Positions 54,691-62,463 of a stretch of DNA of 64,000 bases are shown here, piece by piece. Position 1 is the first letter of the stretch; every line of letters begins with the position of its first letter. The position numbers and the translations under genes are program-made. The stretch is from Fodinibius roseus. Lineage in GTDB: Bacteria; Bacteroidota; Rhodothermia; Balneolales; Balneolaceae. The stretch covers positions 62,001 through 126,000 of the forward strand of contig NZ_FQUS01000015.1 in NCBI RefSeq assembly GCF_900129315.1, read 5' to 3'. The notes below the pieces were generated by a model. That model had not been told where the DNA came from. It made no database searches and saw only the letters and a list, made by a program, of their open reading frames with translations.

Positions 54691-54777
54691 TTAGCCGTCA
54701 TCATCACCGCCGCCGCCCATATCTTCCTGGTCGGGCATGGCAGAGAACGTAAAAGGGTGGTCAAGCAAGCTCATCAT
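54691..54777 (-). CDS. Candidate microprotein, 28 codons
   Basis: A short frame starting ATGATG, preceded by AGGGA about 10 bp upstream. The product begins MMSLLDHPF and ends with an acidic glycine-rich tail, DMGGGGDDDG. A hairpin with moderate T-richness lies 41 bp downstream on the same strand. No homologue is known to me. The biased composition and tidy context suggest a real gene, but length alone proves nothing. Confidence 0.4.
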   Translation of the reverse strand: MMSLLDHPFTFSAMPDQEDMGGGGDDDG

Positions 54778-55361: not shown

Positions 55362-58286
55362 ATGGACAGACGACGGCTTTTCATTTTCCTGGCCTGCACT
55401 TTTTTTCCGCTTGCGGTGTGGGGACAGAGCGTGCAGCTTGCGGATTCCCTGCTGCAGAAAGGCAAGGATTATGATAACAGGGGAAACATGGGGCAGGCTG
55501 AATTCTACTACCGCGAAGCATATGACCTTTACCGGAATTTCAGAGATACCACTTCATGGCTGGAAGCAGGCAAAGAGTACGCCAGCGCCATGGTCTATCG
55601 ATCGAAGCATGACCAGGCAATGGAGCTGTATAGGATGCTTTTAACGATTGACCACCCTGCCAATGATACCTACAATCGCGGAGATCTCTATAACAGTATG
55701 GGGTGGGCGTCCAGCAAATCCGGGAAACCCACGGCGGCGCTGAACTACTATAATAAATCTTTGCCCCTGGCCGAAGAATCCGGTGACAATGAACTCATCG
55801 GCGTCGTATTTGATAATATTGGATCGGTTTATTATCGAAAGGGCAATTTTTCGAAAGCATTGGAGTTTAGCGAAAGAGCCCTGCCGTATTTTAAAAAGTT
55901 AGGCAGCGATCTCAGGATTAGTATTACCCTCAGTAATATTGGGAATATTTACAAAAAACTGTCTCTCTACAATCAAGCCCTTGACTATTATAACCGCAGC
56001 CTCAGACTTAGCGAGGAGGTGGGGGATGTACGCCGGCTGTCAACCGTATATAGTGCAATTGCAAGCGCACAAACAAGCCTGGGAAATTATGACCAGGCTT
56101 TGGTTGCCTACCAAAAAAGCCTGGAATACAGCCGGCAGGCAGGAGTGCCAAGCTTAGCAGCGGAGACCCTCAATAATATCGGACTTCTCTATAAACGCCT
56201 TGGCGAATACGATAAAGCCCGGGACTATTACCGGCAAAGCCTGAGTTTGAAAGAGAAGACCGGGAACCCGCAATCCCTGGCCACCACGACGATGAATCTC
56301 GGCAAAGTGCTTTGGGAGCTGGGTAATACCGAGGAGGCTTCCGACCATTATATAAAGGCTTTTGCATTGCGAAAACAGGCCGGCAATCCTTATAAAATGG
56401 CTTATTCGCTTAAAACCATGGTGGAGATGGAACTCCATAACCAAGATTATGGACAGGCTCGTGAATATGCCCGCCAATTAAAAGCAATCGGCGATTCCAC
56501 CGGTAATTATGCTGTTTTGGGAAACAGCGCTGCCTACTTTGGTGATATCAGTGCAGCAGAGGGAGCGGATCAGACCGCCCTTCAACACTATCGAAGGGCC
56601 TATGCTTTCAGCAAATTTTTACCGGGCCGTGAGCAGCTGGTATCGCTCCAGCGATTGGCCCGCCAGTTTCATAAGCTGAATTCCGACAGCGCCGTGGTAT
56701 ATGGACAAAAAGCGGTGAACATTATCGAACAGACCCGGATGAAGGCGGGATCCACCTCAGATCTCAAGGCGGGATATTTTAAAAAGTATTCCGACTTTTA
56801 TACCCGGCTGGCTTCCTGGGTGCTGAAATACGAACAGGACAGGTCCCGCGCTTTTCGGCTGGTAGAGCAGGCCAAAGCCCGTTCCTTCAGCGATGAGCTG
56901 GCTAAAGCATCTCAAAATATTGACCAGCAGCTTCCCGACGCAGTTCGGATTAGCCGAAAGGAACGGAGAAACAGCATAGACAGCCTTTTTACCCGATTGG
57001 AATTATCCGATAATCAAGAGGAACAAGCCCGGTTAAGTGATGAAATCCGAAGAGCGGAGTTAGAGTATGCTGCTTATGAAAACAAACTGGCAAGCCAGTA
57101 TCCCGAACTCAAAAAGATGGAGCTCCCGGGGTCCATCGGGCTGGAACGCGCGCAGACCCTTGTGGATGAGGAAACAGCTGTGCTCGAATATGCGATTGCC
57201 GGCAATAAGCTGATTACGTTTCTCATCGGCCGGGATGAGGTGCGTATCGAACAGGTTTCGCTGCCCGGTACCCGGCCGCTGGGCGAAGAGCTGACGACAC
57301 GCGTCGCCCGTTTCAGGGAAATGATTTTATCCAATGCCGGGCGGGATGAGTTGCGGGCAGCATCCGATAAATTGTATAATTTGCTGATAAAGCCCTTTGA
57401 AGAATCACTCGGCGGCTATTCGAATATCATTATTGTCCCCGACGGGGCCCTGGTCTACCTGCCTTTTGAGGCGTTATTGGGGGACGAGGGGTATCTAATA
57501 GAAGGATTCCGGATTAAATATGAACCCTCGCTTACCAGTCTTACTCTTTTGGAGAAACCCAAAGCCGTCGACCGAAAAGAGTTGCTGGCCGTGGCGGGTT
57601 CACAATCTTCGGGAAATGCCGGGGGTCGGCCCGCCAGCGCCAACCAGCTTTCAGCCCTCCCCTCAACGCTCATTGAGGTGGATTCTATCGCCTCCCATTT
57701 CCGGCAGGTTTCTATCCTCAAAGAAGAACAGGTTTCCGAACGAGCGTTTAAGAATCTGCTGCAAGAGAATCGCTACCGGTATGTTCATTTGGCCACCCAT
57801 GGTATCATTGATGAAAATCGCCCCGGCCGAAGCGGACTGACCCTTTCGGCGGGAGGAGAGCTTACCCCTTCTTCCACAGAGGATGGGATGTTGCGCAGCT
57901 CCGAGATCTTCGGTTTGGATGTCAGATCGGATATGGTCGTTCTGAGTGCCTGCAATACCGGACTCGGTAAACTGGTGGAAGGGGAAGGCATGCTGGGAAT
58001 GCAGCGATCGTTCTTCTATGCGGGTACCGCAACGGTGATTGTCAGTCTTTGGAATGTTTATGATCGCTCGACCGCCTCTTTGATGAATGAGTTTTACAAA
58101 GCGCTGATTAACAGTACCGCGGAAGAAGGCTGGATGAACACCGTGCTGAGGTGGGTTGGATGGGACCGATCGATTCCCTTCGGCAGGAAAGCGACGGCGA
58201 TGCGCCGGGCCAAGCTGAAGATGATTAACCATCCGCTGTATAATCACCCGGTTTACTGGGCGCCGTTTATTGTCGTGGGGAGGTAA
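55362..58286 (+). CDS. CHAT-domain tetratricopeptide repeat protein, secreted
   Basis: 974 residues. Signal peptide about 1-22 (FLACTFFPLAVWGQS). Some eight to ten TPR units between residues 40 and 460 (GDLYNSMGWASSKSGKPTAA, NIGSVYYRKGNFSKAL and others). A coiled linker follows, then a CHAT caspase/separase-like domain about 640-970. The catalytic pair appears intact: H813 in HLATHG and C864 in LSACNTGLG. CHAT proteases cut specific protein partners, but here the export signal suggests a periplasmic role. A sigma factor and a TPR membrane protein lie 2.7 kb downstream and may be functionally linked. Confidence 0.9.
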   Translation: MDRRRLFIFLACTFFPLAVWGQSVQLADSLLQKGKDYDNRGNMGQAEFYYREAYDLYRNFRDTTSWLEAGKEYASAMVYRSKHDQAMELYRMLLTIDHPANDTYNRGDLYNSMGWASSKSGKPTAALNYYNKSLPLAEESGDNELIGVVFDNIGSVYYRKGNFSKALEFSERALPYFKKLGSDLRISITLSNIGNIYKKLSLYNQALDYYNRSLRLSEEVGDVRRLSTVYSAIASAQTSLGNYDQALVAYQKSLEYSRQAGVPSLAAETLNNIGLLYKRLGEYDKARDYYRQSLSLKEKTGNPQSLATTTMNLGKVLWELGNTEEASDHYIKAFALRKQAGNPYKMAYSLKTMVEMELHNQDYGQAREYARQLKAIGDSTGNYAVLGNSAAYFGDISAAEGADQTALQHYRRAYAFSKFLPGREQLVSLQRLARQFHKLNSDSAVVYGQKAVNIIEQTRMKAGSTSDLKAGYFKKYSDFYTRLASWVLKYEQDRSRAFRLVEQAKARSFSDELAKASQNIDQQLPDAVRISRKERRNSIDSLFTRLELSDNQEEQARLSDEIRRAELEYAAYENKLASQYPELKKMELPGSIGLERAQTLVDEETAVLEYAIAGNKLITFLIGRDEVRIEQVSLPGTRPLGEELTTRVARFREMILSNAGRDELRAASDKLYNLLIKPFEESLGGYSNIIIVPDGALVYLPFEALLGDEGYLIEGFRIKYEPSLTSLTLLEKPKAVDRKELLAVAGSQSSGNAGGRPASANQLSALPSTLIEVDSIASHFRQVSILKEEQVSERAFKNLLQENRYRYVHLATHGIIDENRPGRSGLTLSAGGELTPSSTEDGMLRSSEIFGLDVRSDMVVLSACNTGLGKLVEGEGMLGMQRSFFYAGTATVIVSLWNVYDRSTASLMNEFYKALINSTAEEGWMNTVLRWVGWDRSIPFGRKATAMRRAKLKMINHPLYNHPVYWAPFIVVGR

Positions 58287-58336
58287 TGGCAGATGATAAG
58301 CAAAAAGTATTAAGTGTCACGTAGAAAAGCCTTGTC

Positions 58337-60049
58337 CTATAAATCGGTTTTCGTAATTTCGATAAACTCCTGGTTATCCACGGAGGGGGCTTCATCTGCA
58401 TTGGCAATCATAACGGCAGAGGCATAAATGGTACGGACGATCCCGGCCATTTTTTCAAAGCGGATTTTATGTACCTCGTCAGAGGGACGATGATAGTCCT
58501 CATGCACGCCTGTGAAGAAGAAGGCAAAGGGAACGCCCAGCCGGCCGAAATTCCAGTGATCACTGCGCCGGTAGAACTGGTTGGGATCCTTCAGGTCGTT
58601 ATATTTTTTATTGAGGGTAATCTGTCCCGATCGGCGATTGGCCGCTTTGATCAGGCTGTCCAGCTCAGAGGAAATTAATTCACTCCCGATGATATAGGCG
58701 TAATTTTCCACCCCTTTTTGTTGGTGTTCTTCGTCAATACGTCCGATCATATCCATGTTTAGATTGGCTACGGTCTTCTCTATGGGGAATACCGGGTGGT
58801 CGGAGTAGTAGCGCGAGCCCAACAACCCCTTTTCCTCTCCCGTAACATTCAAAAACAGAATGCTGCGCCGGGGAGAAACCCCATTTCGAGCCGCTTCCCG
58901 GAAAGCGTGGGCCATATTAAGCATAGCTACGGTACCGCTGCCGTCATCGTCGGCCCCGTTGTAAATGCGATCCCCGGTAGAGTCGGGCTGACCGATCCCT
59001 ACGTGATCATAATGAGAGGTCACTACGACCACTTCATCTTTCAGTTGTGGATCGGCTCCTTCCAGGTAGGCCAGAACGTTTTTCGTTTCCAGGGAGACTT
59101 CACGCTCATAGGGAATTTGTGAAAGTCCGTAGTCCAGGGGCCTGGGAGTAAAATCCGTAATATTTTGTATAATCTTCTCTCGTAACCCGGTCAGCGAAGC
59201 GGGGTTCTCCAGCCTGAGCAGCCTGGTGGCCATCGTTGGGCTTACCACGTTGTACCCGTTGCTGAATTCCTGCGATGGTACGGAGTCATCGCGATAAGCC
59301 AGTCGCATATTTGTTGGTTTACCGAAGTCGCTCTGCTTTTGGGCGGCCGACGACCGGAATTCTTCGCCGGCCATATCGGAAATAAGCAGCATTCCCTCGG
59401 CTCCCTGGCTAAAGATGCTGCTGAACCGGGCCCGCGCACCGATAGATGGATCAACCAGCGTGTCCCCATCTATTATGTGAGGAATATCCTGAAACACCAT
59501 CACCCATTTGCCCTGCAAATCCATCCCCTTCAAATGATGGAGACCGCGGGACGGATCATTGACGCCAAAGCCTGCGAAGACGATTTGCCCGCTCAGGGAA
59601 TCGGTACCGCCAAAAGCGCGAATGAAGTCTCCCGTAGCGTTCCTGCTGGATACGGAACGACTTGCCGGTTGCTTTTGATCCTCGTTCATAGCAAATATTT
59701 TGAATACGATGCTGTCGCGTTGAGTAGCAGTGAGTTTAAATTTTTGAAAGTAGCTGCGGGACTCACCGGCGGGCTGCATATTCATTTCACGATATTGATT
59801 CGCGAGATAACGGGCGGCTTTTTTTTGTCCGGGCATTGCCGTTTCACGTCCCTCCATCGAGTCAGAAGCAAAAACCGTCAGATGCTGCCGCAGGAAGTCT
59901 GTCGTAATTTCGTCCTGGTACGCCAGCAGGCGCTCGGTATTTGTCGCTATTGATGGCTGTGTTTCCTTCCGGACTGATTGTTCGGTACTGCTGCAGCCAG
60001 ACACGGCCCAAAAAAATCCTGCAGCTGCTAATAGGATGATGCGTCTCAT
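58337..60049 (-). CDS. M28 family zinc metallopeptidase, lipoprotein
   Basis: 570 residues from the ATG at 60049. The frame extends to 60100, but that would overlap scpA; from 60049 the sequence begins with a lipoprotein signal (AAAGFFWAVSGC). Two-zinc M28 ligands: SHYDHVG, NGADDDGSGTVAML, TGEEKGLLGSRYY, LNMDMIGRID and the last His in YHRPSDEVH. A PA-like insert lies about residues 140-290. It is an aminopeptidase- or carboxypeptidase-like enzyme of the periplasm. It follows scpA by 28 bp. Confidence 0.92.
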   Translation of the reverse strand: MRRIILLAAAGFFWAVSGCSSTEQSVRKETQPSIATNTERLLAYQDEITTDFLRQHLTVFASDSMEGRETAMPGQKKAARYLANQYREMNMQPAGESRSYFQKFKLTATQRDSIVFKIFAMNEDQKQPASRSVSSRNATGDFIRAFGGTDSLSGQIVFAGFGVNDPSRGLHHLKGMDLQGKWVMVFQDIPHIIDGDTLVDPSIGARARFSSIFSQGAEGMLLISDMAGEEFRSSAAQKQSDFGKPTNMRLAYRDDSVPSQEFSNGYNVVSPTMATRLLRLENPASLTGLREKIIQNITDFTPRPLDYGLSQIPYEREVSLETKNVLAYLEGADPQLKDEVVVVTSHYDHVGIGQPDSTGDRIYNGADDDGSGTVAMLNMAHAFREAARNGVSPRRSILFLNVTGEEKGLLGSRYYSDHPVFPIEKTVANLNMDMIGRIDEEHQQKGVENYAYIIGSELISSELDSLIKAANRRSGQITLNKKYNDLKDPNQFYRRSDHWNFGRLGVPFAFFFTGVHEDYHRPSDEVHKIRFEKMAGIVRTIYASAVMIANADEAPSVDNQEFIEITKTDL

Positions 60050-60077
60050 AGATGTGAACTGTAGTTCCATGTTGTCA

Positions 60078-60821
60078 TTAGGTCGCGCTGATAATTTCAT
60101 CCACCGGTTTTAAATCGAGAAAAAAGTCTGTCGGATCGTCATTTTCTATATACAAGTTAATTTGTCGTTCCTTAAGCATTTCTAAGATTGCAAGGAAAGT
60201 GACAACAATTTTCGTCCGGTTTTGCAACTCGAAACACAGTGTCCGGAATGCTGTTCGCCCCCGTTCCTGCAGCTGATGTAATATATATTCGGTCTGCTCT
60301 TCAATGGTATATTCGATTTTTTCAACGTGATGAACTGATTTCTGCTTCTTTATATCGGCCAGCACTTTTTTAAATGCGGACATCAGGTCGAACATCGTTA
60401 CGTTCTTCAGGGCTTCTCCGCTGGCTTGTTTCTCTACCTGGTCGGCTTCGGGATTCCCCCGGAAGTGTTTTTTCCGGGCCTCTTCTTCAATAGACTCCAT
60501 TTTTTCGGCCATCTCCTTGTAGCGCTTGTATTCCAGCAGCCGTTGAACCAGCTCATAGCGGGGATCGTGCTCATCCAGCTCTTCATCCGACTCTTCCTGG
60601 GGCAGCATCATCCTGGCCTTGATCGACATGAGCATACTGGCCATCAGGATAAATTCGCTGGCTACATCCAGATCCAGCTCCTCCATTAAGTTGATATATT
60701 CGAGGAACTGGTTGGTAATATAGGAGATAGGAATATCATAAATATCGAGTTCGTCTCTCTTGATAAAAAAGAGGAGCAGATCCAGGGGACCTTCAAAATT
60801 TTTTAACCGTACGCGATACAT
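60078..60821 (-). CDS. scpA: Segregation and condensation protein A
   Basis: 247 residues, normal for ScpA, the kleisin that bridges SMC heads with ScpB. N-terminal signature: FEGPLDLLLFFIKRDELDIYD and the IPISYITNQFLEYI helix. The C-terminal winged-helix part (GRTAFRTLCFELQNRTKIVVTFLAILEMLKERQI) binds the SMC cap. No scpB is seen nearby. It precedes the M28 peptidase on the same strand. Confidence 0.95.
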   Translation of the reverse strand: MYRVRLKNFEGPLDLLLFFIKRDELDIYDIPISYITNQFLEYINLMEELDLDVASEFILMASMLMSIKARMMLPQEESDEELDEHDPRYELVQRLLEYKRYKEMAEKMESIEEEARKKHFRGNPEADQVEKQASGEALKNVTMFDLMSAFKKVLADIKKQKSVHHVEKIEYTIEEQTEYILHQLQERGRTAFRTLCFELQNRTKIVVTFLAILEMLKERQINLYIENDDPTDFFLDLKPVDEIISAT

Positions 60822-61021
60822 CGATTAGTATTAGTGTTTATGTGATATTTAATACTTCTGTCTCGGTTAGCGTTGGGATTGTTACACCTTAAACGCCATT
60901 TCTTAACCTTTATTTGTGCAAAAAAGGGAATTTTTGCCGCTTTTACTACCGAAATTTGTAAAATTAAGGCAGCATATTTTTATTACCTTGTTTTAACTAC
61001 TTTAGCGCCGATTTTTTAACC

Positions 61022-61564
61022 ATGGATTATTCTGAATTGGTGACTGCCCTGAATGAAGGTAACACCAGGAAAGTCAATAAACTGATAGCAGCTATACGTC
61101 CCCGGCTTCTGGCTTTTCTGAGAATTCATATGAATGCCAGTGAGGATGACGCTAAAGATATATCTCAGGAGGCGTTGCTTACGGCTATTCAAACCATTAA
61201 AAAGGATCAGATAAAAAATCCTGACAAAGTGGTTTCATATATCCTGACCATCTGCCGGAACGCTTATCTCAAGACCCGGATGAATCAACGGACCACCCCG
61301 CTTGAGGAAGCCGGCCGGCAGTGGCAGGGGCCCCGGCAGCTGCAATCACTGCTGGACAAGGAACAGCAGCAACTCCTGCAATGGTGTCTGGATAAGCTTA
61401 AAGAGCATCATCGAAAATTTATACAATACTGGTTTGATCATCCGGACGCCCATTCTAAAAAAGTTGCTGAACATTTTAATATCAGTGTTAACAGTGTCTG
61501 GACCCGAAAACACCGTCTCATTAAGAAGCTAAATGAGTGCTATCAAAAAAAGAGTAACTTGTAA
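61022..61564 (+). CDS. Sigma-70 family RNA polymerase sigma factor, ECF-like
   Basis: 180 residues. Region 2 (LLAFLRIHMNASEDDAKDISQEALLTAIQTI) and region 4 (HHRKFIQYWFDHPDAHSKKV, then AEHFNISVNSVWTRKHRLIKKL) are recognisable but diverged from the FecI type. No FecR follows; a membrane TPR protein follows 101 bp later. This resembles other Bacteroidota sigma/TPR pairs near CHAT-TPR genes. Confidence 0.85.
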   Translation: MDYSELVTALNEGNTRKVNKLIAAIRPRLLAFLRIHMNASEDDAKDISQEALLTAIQTIKKDQIKNPDKVVSYILTICRNAYLKTRMNQRTTPLEEAGRQWQGPRQLQSLLDKEQQQLLQWCLDKLKEHHRKFIQYWFDHPDAHSKKVAEHFNISVNSVWTRKHRLIKKLNECYQKKSNL

Positions 61565-61665
61565 TGTAAGGATTTGCTCTCAATACGATCTTACTTATAA
61601 AGAGAAGCCTGTAATAGCCCTTTTAAGGGTACTACAGCCGTTATCACACCAAAAAGACACACGAT

Positions 61666-62463
61666 ATGGCACGCGATGTAGAACTGGAAAAACAAATTGA
61701 CGCCTATGTCAAGGGGCATTTGACCGAGAAGCAGGCCCAGGAGCTTTGGGAAGAGCTGCTCAAAAATCCCGGGTATATTGAGCTTTTGAATACGGAGATC
61801 AGTCTTCGCAACATGGTTACAGAAGCCGACAGCGGCAAATCTTCATCAGGTACAAAACAGCGTCATGCTCTGATCCATTCCCTGCAAAATTCCTGGAAAT
61901 GGGCAGCCGCAGCGGTAGCTATCGTCATTGTGGCTGTTGCGGTTAACTTTTTCTTGATGGATACGGAACAGACCCTCGACGAGCTGGCGTTGAACGAAAT
62001 TCCCTTGTCCGAAAGCCTTGCCTCTGCTCCTGCCCTCCGGTCGGGGCAAGCCCGGAGCACTCCCGGAGATTCGCTGCTAAACCGGGGATTTAAAGAAGCC
62101 ATATCAGGTAATATTTCGAAAGCTATGGAATTATATGATGTTATCATACAAGAATATCCGGATCAGCCTTCAGCTGTTCAGGCGTACCTTAACAGGGGGA
62201 TCATTCAATTTAACCGGTATAACTATGAAGGGGCCATTGTCTCATTTAAGGAGGTCGTCGGCAAAGCAGAAGAACAATCCTTCCTTCGTGAAAAGGGATA
62301 CTGGTATTTGGGGAATGCATATATCAACACCGATAGCTTAAGCCGGGCTCACGAGGCCATCTTCGAGGTCTACTCCATGGAAGGGGTTTACCGAAATCCC
62401 GCCGGTGATATCTTGCAAAAACTGGACAAGCAGCTGGGCAACCCTCCCGGAAAATATGATTAA
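61666..62463 (+). CDS. Membrane TPR protein, possible anti-sigma factor
   Basis: 265 residues. Cytoplasmic N-terminal helices (EKQIDAYVKGHLTEKQAQELWEELLKNPG), one membrane helix (about 76-97, WKWAAAAVAIVIVAVAVNFFL), then a periplasmic domain with TPR units (ALNEIPLSES is linker; NISKAMELYDVIIQEYPDQPSAVQAYLNRGIIQF). The layout resembles an anti-sigma factor with a protein-binding sensor domain. Its partner would be the sigma factor encoded upstream. No zinc-binding motif is visible. Confidence 0.72.
   Translation: MARDVELEKQIDAYVKGHLTEKQAQELWEELLKNPGYIELLNTEISLRNMVTEADSGKSSSGTKQRHALIHSLQNSWKWAAAAVAIVIVAVAVNFFLMDTEQTLDELALNEIPLSESLASAPALRSGQARSTPGDSLLNRGFKEAISGNISKAMELYDVIIQEYPDQPSAVQAYLNRGIIQFNRYNYEGAIVSFKEVVGKAEEQSFLREKGYWYLGNAYINTDSLSRAHEAIFEVYSMEGVYRNPAGDILQKLDKQLGNPPGKYD

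Follow-up and report, generated by a model that had tools for sequence, protein, structure and literature searches.

Site-1 proteases of membrane anti-sigma factors are known from the RseA, RsiW and RsiV systems, where DegS (a serine protease with a PDZ domain), PrsW and signal peptidase fill this role, and the CalpL-CalpT-CalpS type III CRISPR Lon system likewise frees a sigma factor through proteolysis of an anti-sigma factor. To our knowledge neither DegS, PrsW nor signal peptidase is of the caspase or separase type, and the site-1 proteases of Bacteroidota anti-sigma factors for extracytoplasmic function (ECF) sigma factors are largely unknown. Here we describe a locus in a stretch of 64,000 nucleotides from Fodinibius roseus (order Balneolales; hereafter the window), in which genes for an exported TPR-CHAT protein, an ECF sigma factor and a TPR protein with one transmembrane helix lie close together, and we compare it with these systems and with two others in which a CHAT-type protein is linked to an ECF sigma factor. 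In Craspase, which has been compared with a CRISPR-associated Lon protease, a TPR-CHAT protease cuts Csx30, the inhibitor of an ECF sigma factor (PMC10028731). The sites cut by Craspases are non-conserved, with L, M or A at P1, and their protease Csx29 recognises structure and not a motif (PMC10028731, PMC11106740). DdvA is the transmembrane anti-sigma factor of the ECF sigma factor DdvS in Myxococcus xanthus, and its signal was unknown as of the report describing it (PMC4374960).

On balance we favour a reading in which the three genes form an envelope module, the periplasmic CHAT protease making the first cut in the anti-sigma factor, after an arginine in its linker, and so starting the release of the sigma factor. 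With its N-terminal domain the one-helix TPR protein would tether the ECF sigma factor to the membrane until a signal activates the periplasmic TPR-CHAT protein, a protease of the caspase/separase type, probably via its TPR scaffold. The activated CHAT protein would then cut the anti-sigma factor after a conserved arginine or lysine in the linker between transmembrane helix and TPR domain (site 1), and a site-2 protease, for example an M50 peptidase of the RseP type, would remove the remaining stub and free the sigma factor. M50 peptidases scoring above the cut-off are encoded in the window's genome (best E 7.6e-66). The genes and features concerned, in window coordinates, are as follows.

55362-58286, + strand: exported TPR-CHAT protein of 974 amino acids, the putative protease of module A, with TPRs and a PF12770 match (E 1.7e-65)
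55362-55427, + strand: predicted signal peptide of the CHAT protein (residues ~1-22), with a basic N-terminus and a hydrophobic core, MDRRRLFIFLACTFFPLAVWGQ
57360-58280, + strand: CHAT domain, residues 667-973, from a profile match
57798-57800, + strand: codon of catalytic His813, conserved in 93/93 module CHATs
57951-57953, + strand: codon of catalytic Cys864, conserved in 93/93 module CHATs
58062-58064, + strand: codon of Asp901, part of the LWxVxD loop and a candidate for the acid that would receive a basic P1 residue in the S1 pocket, conserved in 93/93 module CHATs
58337-60100, - strand: M28 peptidase, between the CHAT and sigma genes
60078-60821, - strand: ScpA, between the CHAT and sigma genes
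61022-61564, + strand: ECF sigma factor of 180 amino acids, from profile matches
61666-62463, + strand: TPR protein of 265 amino acids with one transmembrane helix, proposed anti-sigma factor
61666-61845, + strand: N-terminal three-helix cytoplasmic domain (residues ~1-60, AlphaFold2 model), proposed anti-sigma domain
61891-61956, + strand: predicted single transmembrane helix of the TPR protein, residues 76-97
62029-62046, + strand: linker motif PALRSG, residues 122-127, with near-invariant Arg125 and the proposed cleavage site Arg125/Ser126
62062-62436, + strand: periplasmic TPR domain, residues 133-257 (AlphaFold2 model)

An earlier note on this DNA had pointed to an exported CHAT protein with intact His and Cys residues and, close to it, a non-FecI sigma factor and a one-helix TPR protein. 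The three genes are indeed neighbours, with 2.7 kb between the end of the CHAT gene and the start of the sigma gene, and the CHAT protein, which we expect to be periplasmic given its predicted signal peptide, does contain His813 and Cys864. The gene for the one-helix TPR protein is followed by ruvB.

When 97 genomes of the order were searched with the sigma factor, the TPR protein and the CHAT family, the three were repeatedly found together. A CHAT domain lies within 5 kb of 67/109 sigma copies, compared with 0.67 expected by random placement (the count covers part of the listed rows, copied by hand, a genome size of 3.6 Mb was assumed, and contig breaks make it an undercount). Module A, the copy in the window, belongs to an ftsY...ruvB block that is conserved in the clade, and some of the association within the order could be due to synteny alone. 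The earlier note had raised the M28 and scpA genes as a possible interruption. These two are missing at one locus of the order (L107), where the CHAT gene is directly upstream of the sigma and TPR genes, and they do not lie between CHAT and sigma genes at other loci in the phylum either; we therefore rejected them as module members and regard them as a dispensable insertion, probably intervening genes outside the module. The window's genome carries a second CHAT gene, on another contig (C15). This second CHAT protein (module B) has a predicted C-terminal transmembrane helix, its gene is convergent with that of a paralogue of the one-helix TPR protein, and in related genera an ECF sigma factor gene, divergent from the CHAT gene, is part of module B as well.

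The association extends beyond the order. We took 62 CHAT open reading frames (ORFs) outside it from a list of CHAT matches across the phylum, using those with E-values up to about 1e-44. A C-terminal transmembrane helix is predicted in 34/62, and among these 20/34 have an ECF sigma factor gene within 5 kb and 19/34 a relative of the one-helix TPR protein, compared with a nearby sigma gene in 6/28 CHATs that lack such a helix. Outside the class the figure for tethered CHATs is 20/22. In named genomes, both partners lie within 5 kb at 47/54 CHAT loci with 5 kb of sequence on both sides, in a scan that used the CHATs of these loci as query and so favours this CHAT type and is not a random sample. 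The usual layout there is a CHAT gene convergent with the TPR and sigma genes, and the loci include Flavobacterium filum DSM 17961, Maribacter polysiphoniae DSM 23514, Aquimarina amphilecti DSM 25232, Bizionia myxarmorum (two copies) and Saprospiraceae and Cytophagales records. It was on co-occurrence in other genomes that the earlier note had staked its proposal, and the three genes do co-occur, in the order as in other classes.

We also asked whether the partners co-vary, by permuting them within each multi-copy genome and comparing the correlation of distances. The correlation was r 0.78 for CHAT and TPR proteins (0.44 permuted, p 0.004), 0.70 for CHAT and sigma (0.46 permuted, with 0/2000 permutations as high) and 0.86 for TPR and sigma (0.65 permuted, p 0.0005); for loci outside the order alone, p was 0.046, 0.003 and 0.006, respectively. 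Permutation lowers the correlations, and we conclude that the copies evolve as sets. Co-occurrence across order and phylum, the two paralogous modules and the co-varying copies together support, at the level of sequence, the idea put forward in the earlier note that CHAT, sigma and one-helix TPR proteins belong to one protease-coupled regulatory system.

The AlphaFold2 model of the CHAT protein (mean predicted local distance difference test score, pLDDT, 83.5) has as its top structural matches Csx29/TPR-CHAT (Z 29.5), separase (Z 24.9) and DdvA (Z 20.7). A single CHAT-domain sequence gave no match when searched against solved structures; a CHAT profile search did give matches. In addition to the three invariant residues listed above, the acid of the LPFE motif, Glu703, is E or D in 78/93 module CHATs, and as read from the alignment it corresponds to separase's Glu. 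Arg-specific clan CD proteases bind the P1 Arg through acidic residues close to where helix 1 begins and, in the case of MALT1, through acidic residues in loops L4 and L5. By analogy, Asp901 may be the acid that accommodates a basic P1 residue in the S1 pocket. In the HMMER alignment this position is Asp in DdvA and not in Csx29, and the lack of Asp in Csx29 fits with the non-basic P1 residues of Craspases. The module A CHAT protein of the window is soluble, and most other copies carry a predicted C-terminal transmembrane tether. When the module proteins were compared with the PADLOC models of known anti-phage defence systems, the CHAT proteins gave generic TPR-type matches and no others. In some relatives (L096, L098, L099, L100 and L101) a second, diverged TPR-CHAT gene is found in tandem just upstream of the module A CHAT gene.

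It can be seen from the AlphaFold2 model of the TPR protein (pLDDT 89.3) that N-terminal helices at residues 5-15, 21-33 and 36-56 are followed by the transmembrane helix, a linker reaching to residue 132 and the TPR helices. This predicted topology is that of class I (ASDI) membrane anti-sigma factors, with an N-terminal helical cytoplasmic domain, one transmembrane helix and an extracytoplasmic sensor. HxxxCxxC, known as a zinc site from classical anti-sigma domains, is present in the N-terminal part of 3/102 relatives and was not found in the window's own protein, zf-HC2 is weakly matched by 7/38 relatives, and Foldseek returned generic TPR matches and nothing more specific. Because of the N-terminal helical domain, the HxxxCxxC sequence in three relatives and the weak zf-HC2 matches, the one-helix TPR protein is very likely an anti-sigma factor that would inhibit the adjacent sigma factor. 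The latter scores 26.8 bits on PF04542, which covers sigma region 2 (cut-off 24), and 50.2 bits on the ECF-wide model TIGR02937 (cut-off 42.9). It is non-FecI, as the earlier note had it, reaching 46.8 bits on the Bacteroidota FecI-type model TIGR02985 (cut-off 126.4). FecI/FecR cell-surface signalling was rejected for this reason, and also because the partner's domain is TPR and not FecR and there is no adjacent TonB receptor gene.

What is new relative to the earlier note is a conserved arginine site in the linker. In an alignment of 38 phylum-spanning TPR-protein sequences, three columns reach a conservation of at least 90%, Arg125 among them, and in a set of 102 sequences this column is R in 93, K in 7 and another residue in 2 (basic in 100/102), followed by G or S in 86/102, with the linker consensus P-[IV]-[VT]-R-[GS]-[ED]. 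De novo motif discovery by expectation-maximisation, run on the linkers with the alignment unused, ended at [ST]-P-[TVI]-x-R-[SG] with a log-likelihood of 104 compared with 72 +/- 2.9 for shuffles (maximum 77). Scores on a position-specific scoring matrix had a median of 13.7 for module members and a 95th percentile of 7.0 for shuffled sequences; seven control one-helix ECF-linked proteins with no C-terminally tethered CHAT beside them scored -3.8 to 4.9, with no high-scoring motif, in a comparison that is partly circular since the matrix was trained on the module itself. A near-invariant arginine motif outside the membrane looks like a protease cut site, and it turns the proposed link between CHAT, sigma and TPR proteins into a single-residue prediction, a cut after Arg125.

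The module shares with Craspase the TPR-CHAT fold with its His-Cys dyad, and Csx29 is the closest structural match to the window's CHAT model. However, Craspase is cytoplasmic and RNA-guided via Cas7-11, whereas the module's CHAT protein is predicted to be exported, and no Cas7-11 (gRAMP) or CRISPR partner gene was found among the ORFs around the module; likewise the Craspase substrate, Csx30, is soluble and has a non-basic P1 residue, whereas the candidate substrate here is a one-helix membrane TPR protein with a conserved arginine. The solved DdvA chain of 991 residues (PDB 8rot, 8rw5) is annotated as a CHAT protein and keeps the His and Cys in the alignment. DdvA carries anti-sigma and CHAT parts on one chain, whereas in the module there are two proteins, each with a separate TPR domain. 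A 2024 paper on DdvA (Sci Adv eadp1053, cited in PMC12288465) reportedly deals, to go by its title, with regulation of a defence island that combines a cyclic oligonucleotide-based antiphage signalling system (CBASS) with CRISPR. With the RseA/DegS/RseP and RsiW/RsiV systems the module has in common a one-helix anti-sigma factor, with the site-1 cut proposed to fall outside and the site-2 cut inside the membrane. The CalpL-CalpT-CalpS system differs in its cytoplasmic SAVED-Lon protease and cyclic oligoadenylate signal. Separase (clan CD, C50) resembles the CHAT protein in its CHAT-type fold, its helical repeat scaffold and Arg at P1, but it is eukaryotic, cuts cohesin and has no transcriptional role. 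Three separate genes, a protease predicted to be exported and a conserved basic site thus set the module apart from both Craspase and DdvA.

The same data could be read as one signalling system without cutting, in which the CHAT protein acts in the periplasm as a sensor or scaffold, binding the linker or TPR domain and altering sigma release, with the arginine motif as its docking site. Craspase orthologues cut at non-conserved sites, so conservation may reflect binding; both the CHAT and the one-helix protein offer TPR surfaces, and DdvA, an anti-sigma factor that itself carries a CHAT-type domain, fits a sensory role. However, catalytic His and Cys in all 93 module CHATs would be unexpected for a pure scaffold, and a lone Arg or Lys followed by Gly or Ser is more like P1-P1' than a docking surface; we consider docking without cleavage unlikely. 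We think it distinctly improbable that the CHAT protein is instead an output of the sigma factor, which would induce the gene of the protease, an effector in the envelope or in cell death, while another site-1 protease cleaves the TPR protein. ECF factors often control neighbouring genes, and dyad and k-mer searches of the phylum loci found a GTTAACCTT element before a few CHAT genes as well as some sigma genes, but the counts are 18/63 sigma and 7/57 CHAT upstream regions, the element is not common to both genes in the window's clade, and the linker arginine motif would be left unexplained. That the neighbourhood has no function, the ftsY-ruvB gene order merely being kept in the clade, is very improbable indeed: the module A block does sit in this conserved region, but module B in the same genomes, the loci of other orders and classes, where flanks and orientations differ, and the co-varying paralogues largely refute it.

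Several points weigh against cleavage by the CHAT protein as we propose it. Since it is structure that Csx29 recognises, conservation of a motif does not have to mean that it is cut, and the motif could be a binding site; the assignment of Asp901 to the S1 pocket draws on sequence position and general knowledge of clan CD; and the control comparison for the linker motif is circular in part, as noted above. In sister orders of the same class, 12/12 sampled CHATs with a C-terminal transmembrane helix (L216, L220-L226, L232, L242, L245 and L247) lack a nearby sigma factor or one-helix TPR partner, so a CHAT protein can act without them. The module B sigma gene is not at the locus in the window's genome or in its close relative G083; in the window's genome the CHAT and TPR genes are kept without it. 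Lone CHATs and this sigma loss speak against a strictly obligate pairing. In the window's clade no motif common to sigma and CHAT upstream regions was found.

Some further features of these loci were noted. In the window's genome, the codon of the module B TPR gene (L003 9884-10567) that aligns to the relatives' ATG start is AAG, and the first listed start is a GTG ~20 codons further in; the gene is possibly under relaxed constraint after loss of the sigma gene. A TPR histidine kinase gene (L003 10728-12887) lies directly upstream of this orphan TPR gene, also in G083, and was not seen at the same place in the other genera compared. At distant loci (L196-L202 and L213) at least one exported protein of about 140-700 amino acids is often encoded between the sigma and CHAT genes or beside the CHAT gene, and these proteins are candidates for signal input. 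Upstream of the window's sigma gene, at 60925-60945, is a near-palindrome, GCAAAAAAGGGAATTTTTGC, with similar sequences upstream of the sigma gene in L094, L096 and L098, which is possibly an operator or a terminator. A tiny ORF, MMSLLDHPFTFSAMPDQEDMGGGGDDDG (54691-54777, minus strand), lies between ftsY and the CHAT gene and had no counterpart in the 20 related loci searched.

We found no description of an association between CHAT, sigma and TPR proteins in the literature searched, which omits most subscription journals. The association suggests a previously undescribed route from an outside signal to gene expression. More tentatively, and with the chances in our view a little short of even, Bacteroidota may possess a periplasmic, Arg/Lys-specific protease of the caspase/separase type that makes the site-1 cut throughout an entire family of ECF anti-sigma factors. 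Such a system would be the envelope counterpart, free of CRISPR, of Craspase's TPR-CHAT/sigma switch, which possibly arose from it. The module supplies a named candidate enzyme, a named candidate substrate and a prediction at a single residue. If true, it would tie caspase/separase-like proteases to ordinary envelope signalling and would provide a background against which Craspase and DdvA may be understood.

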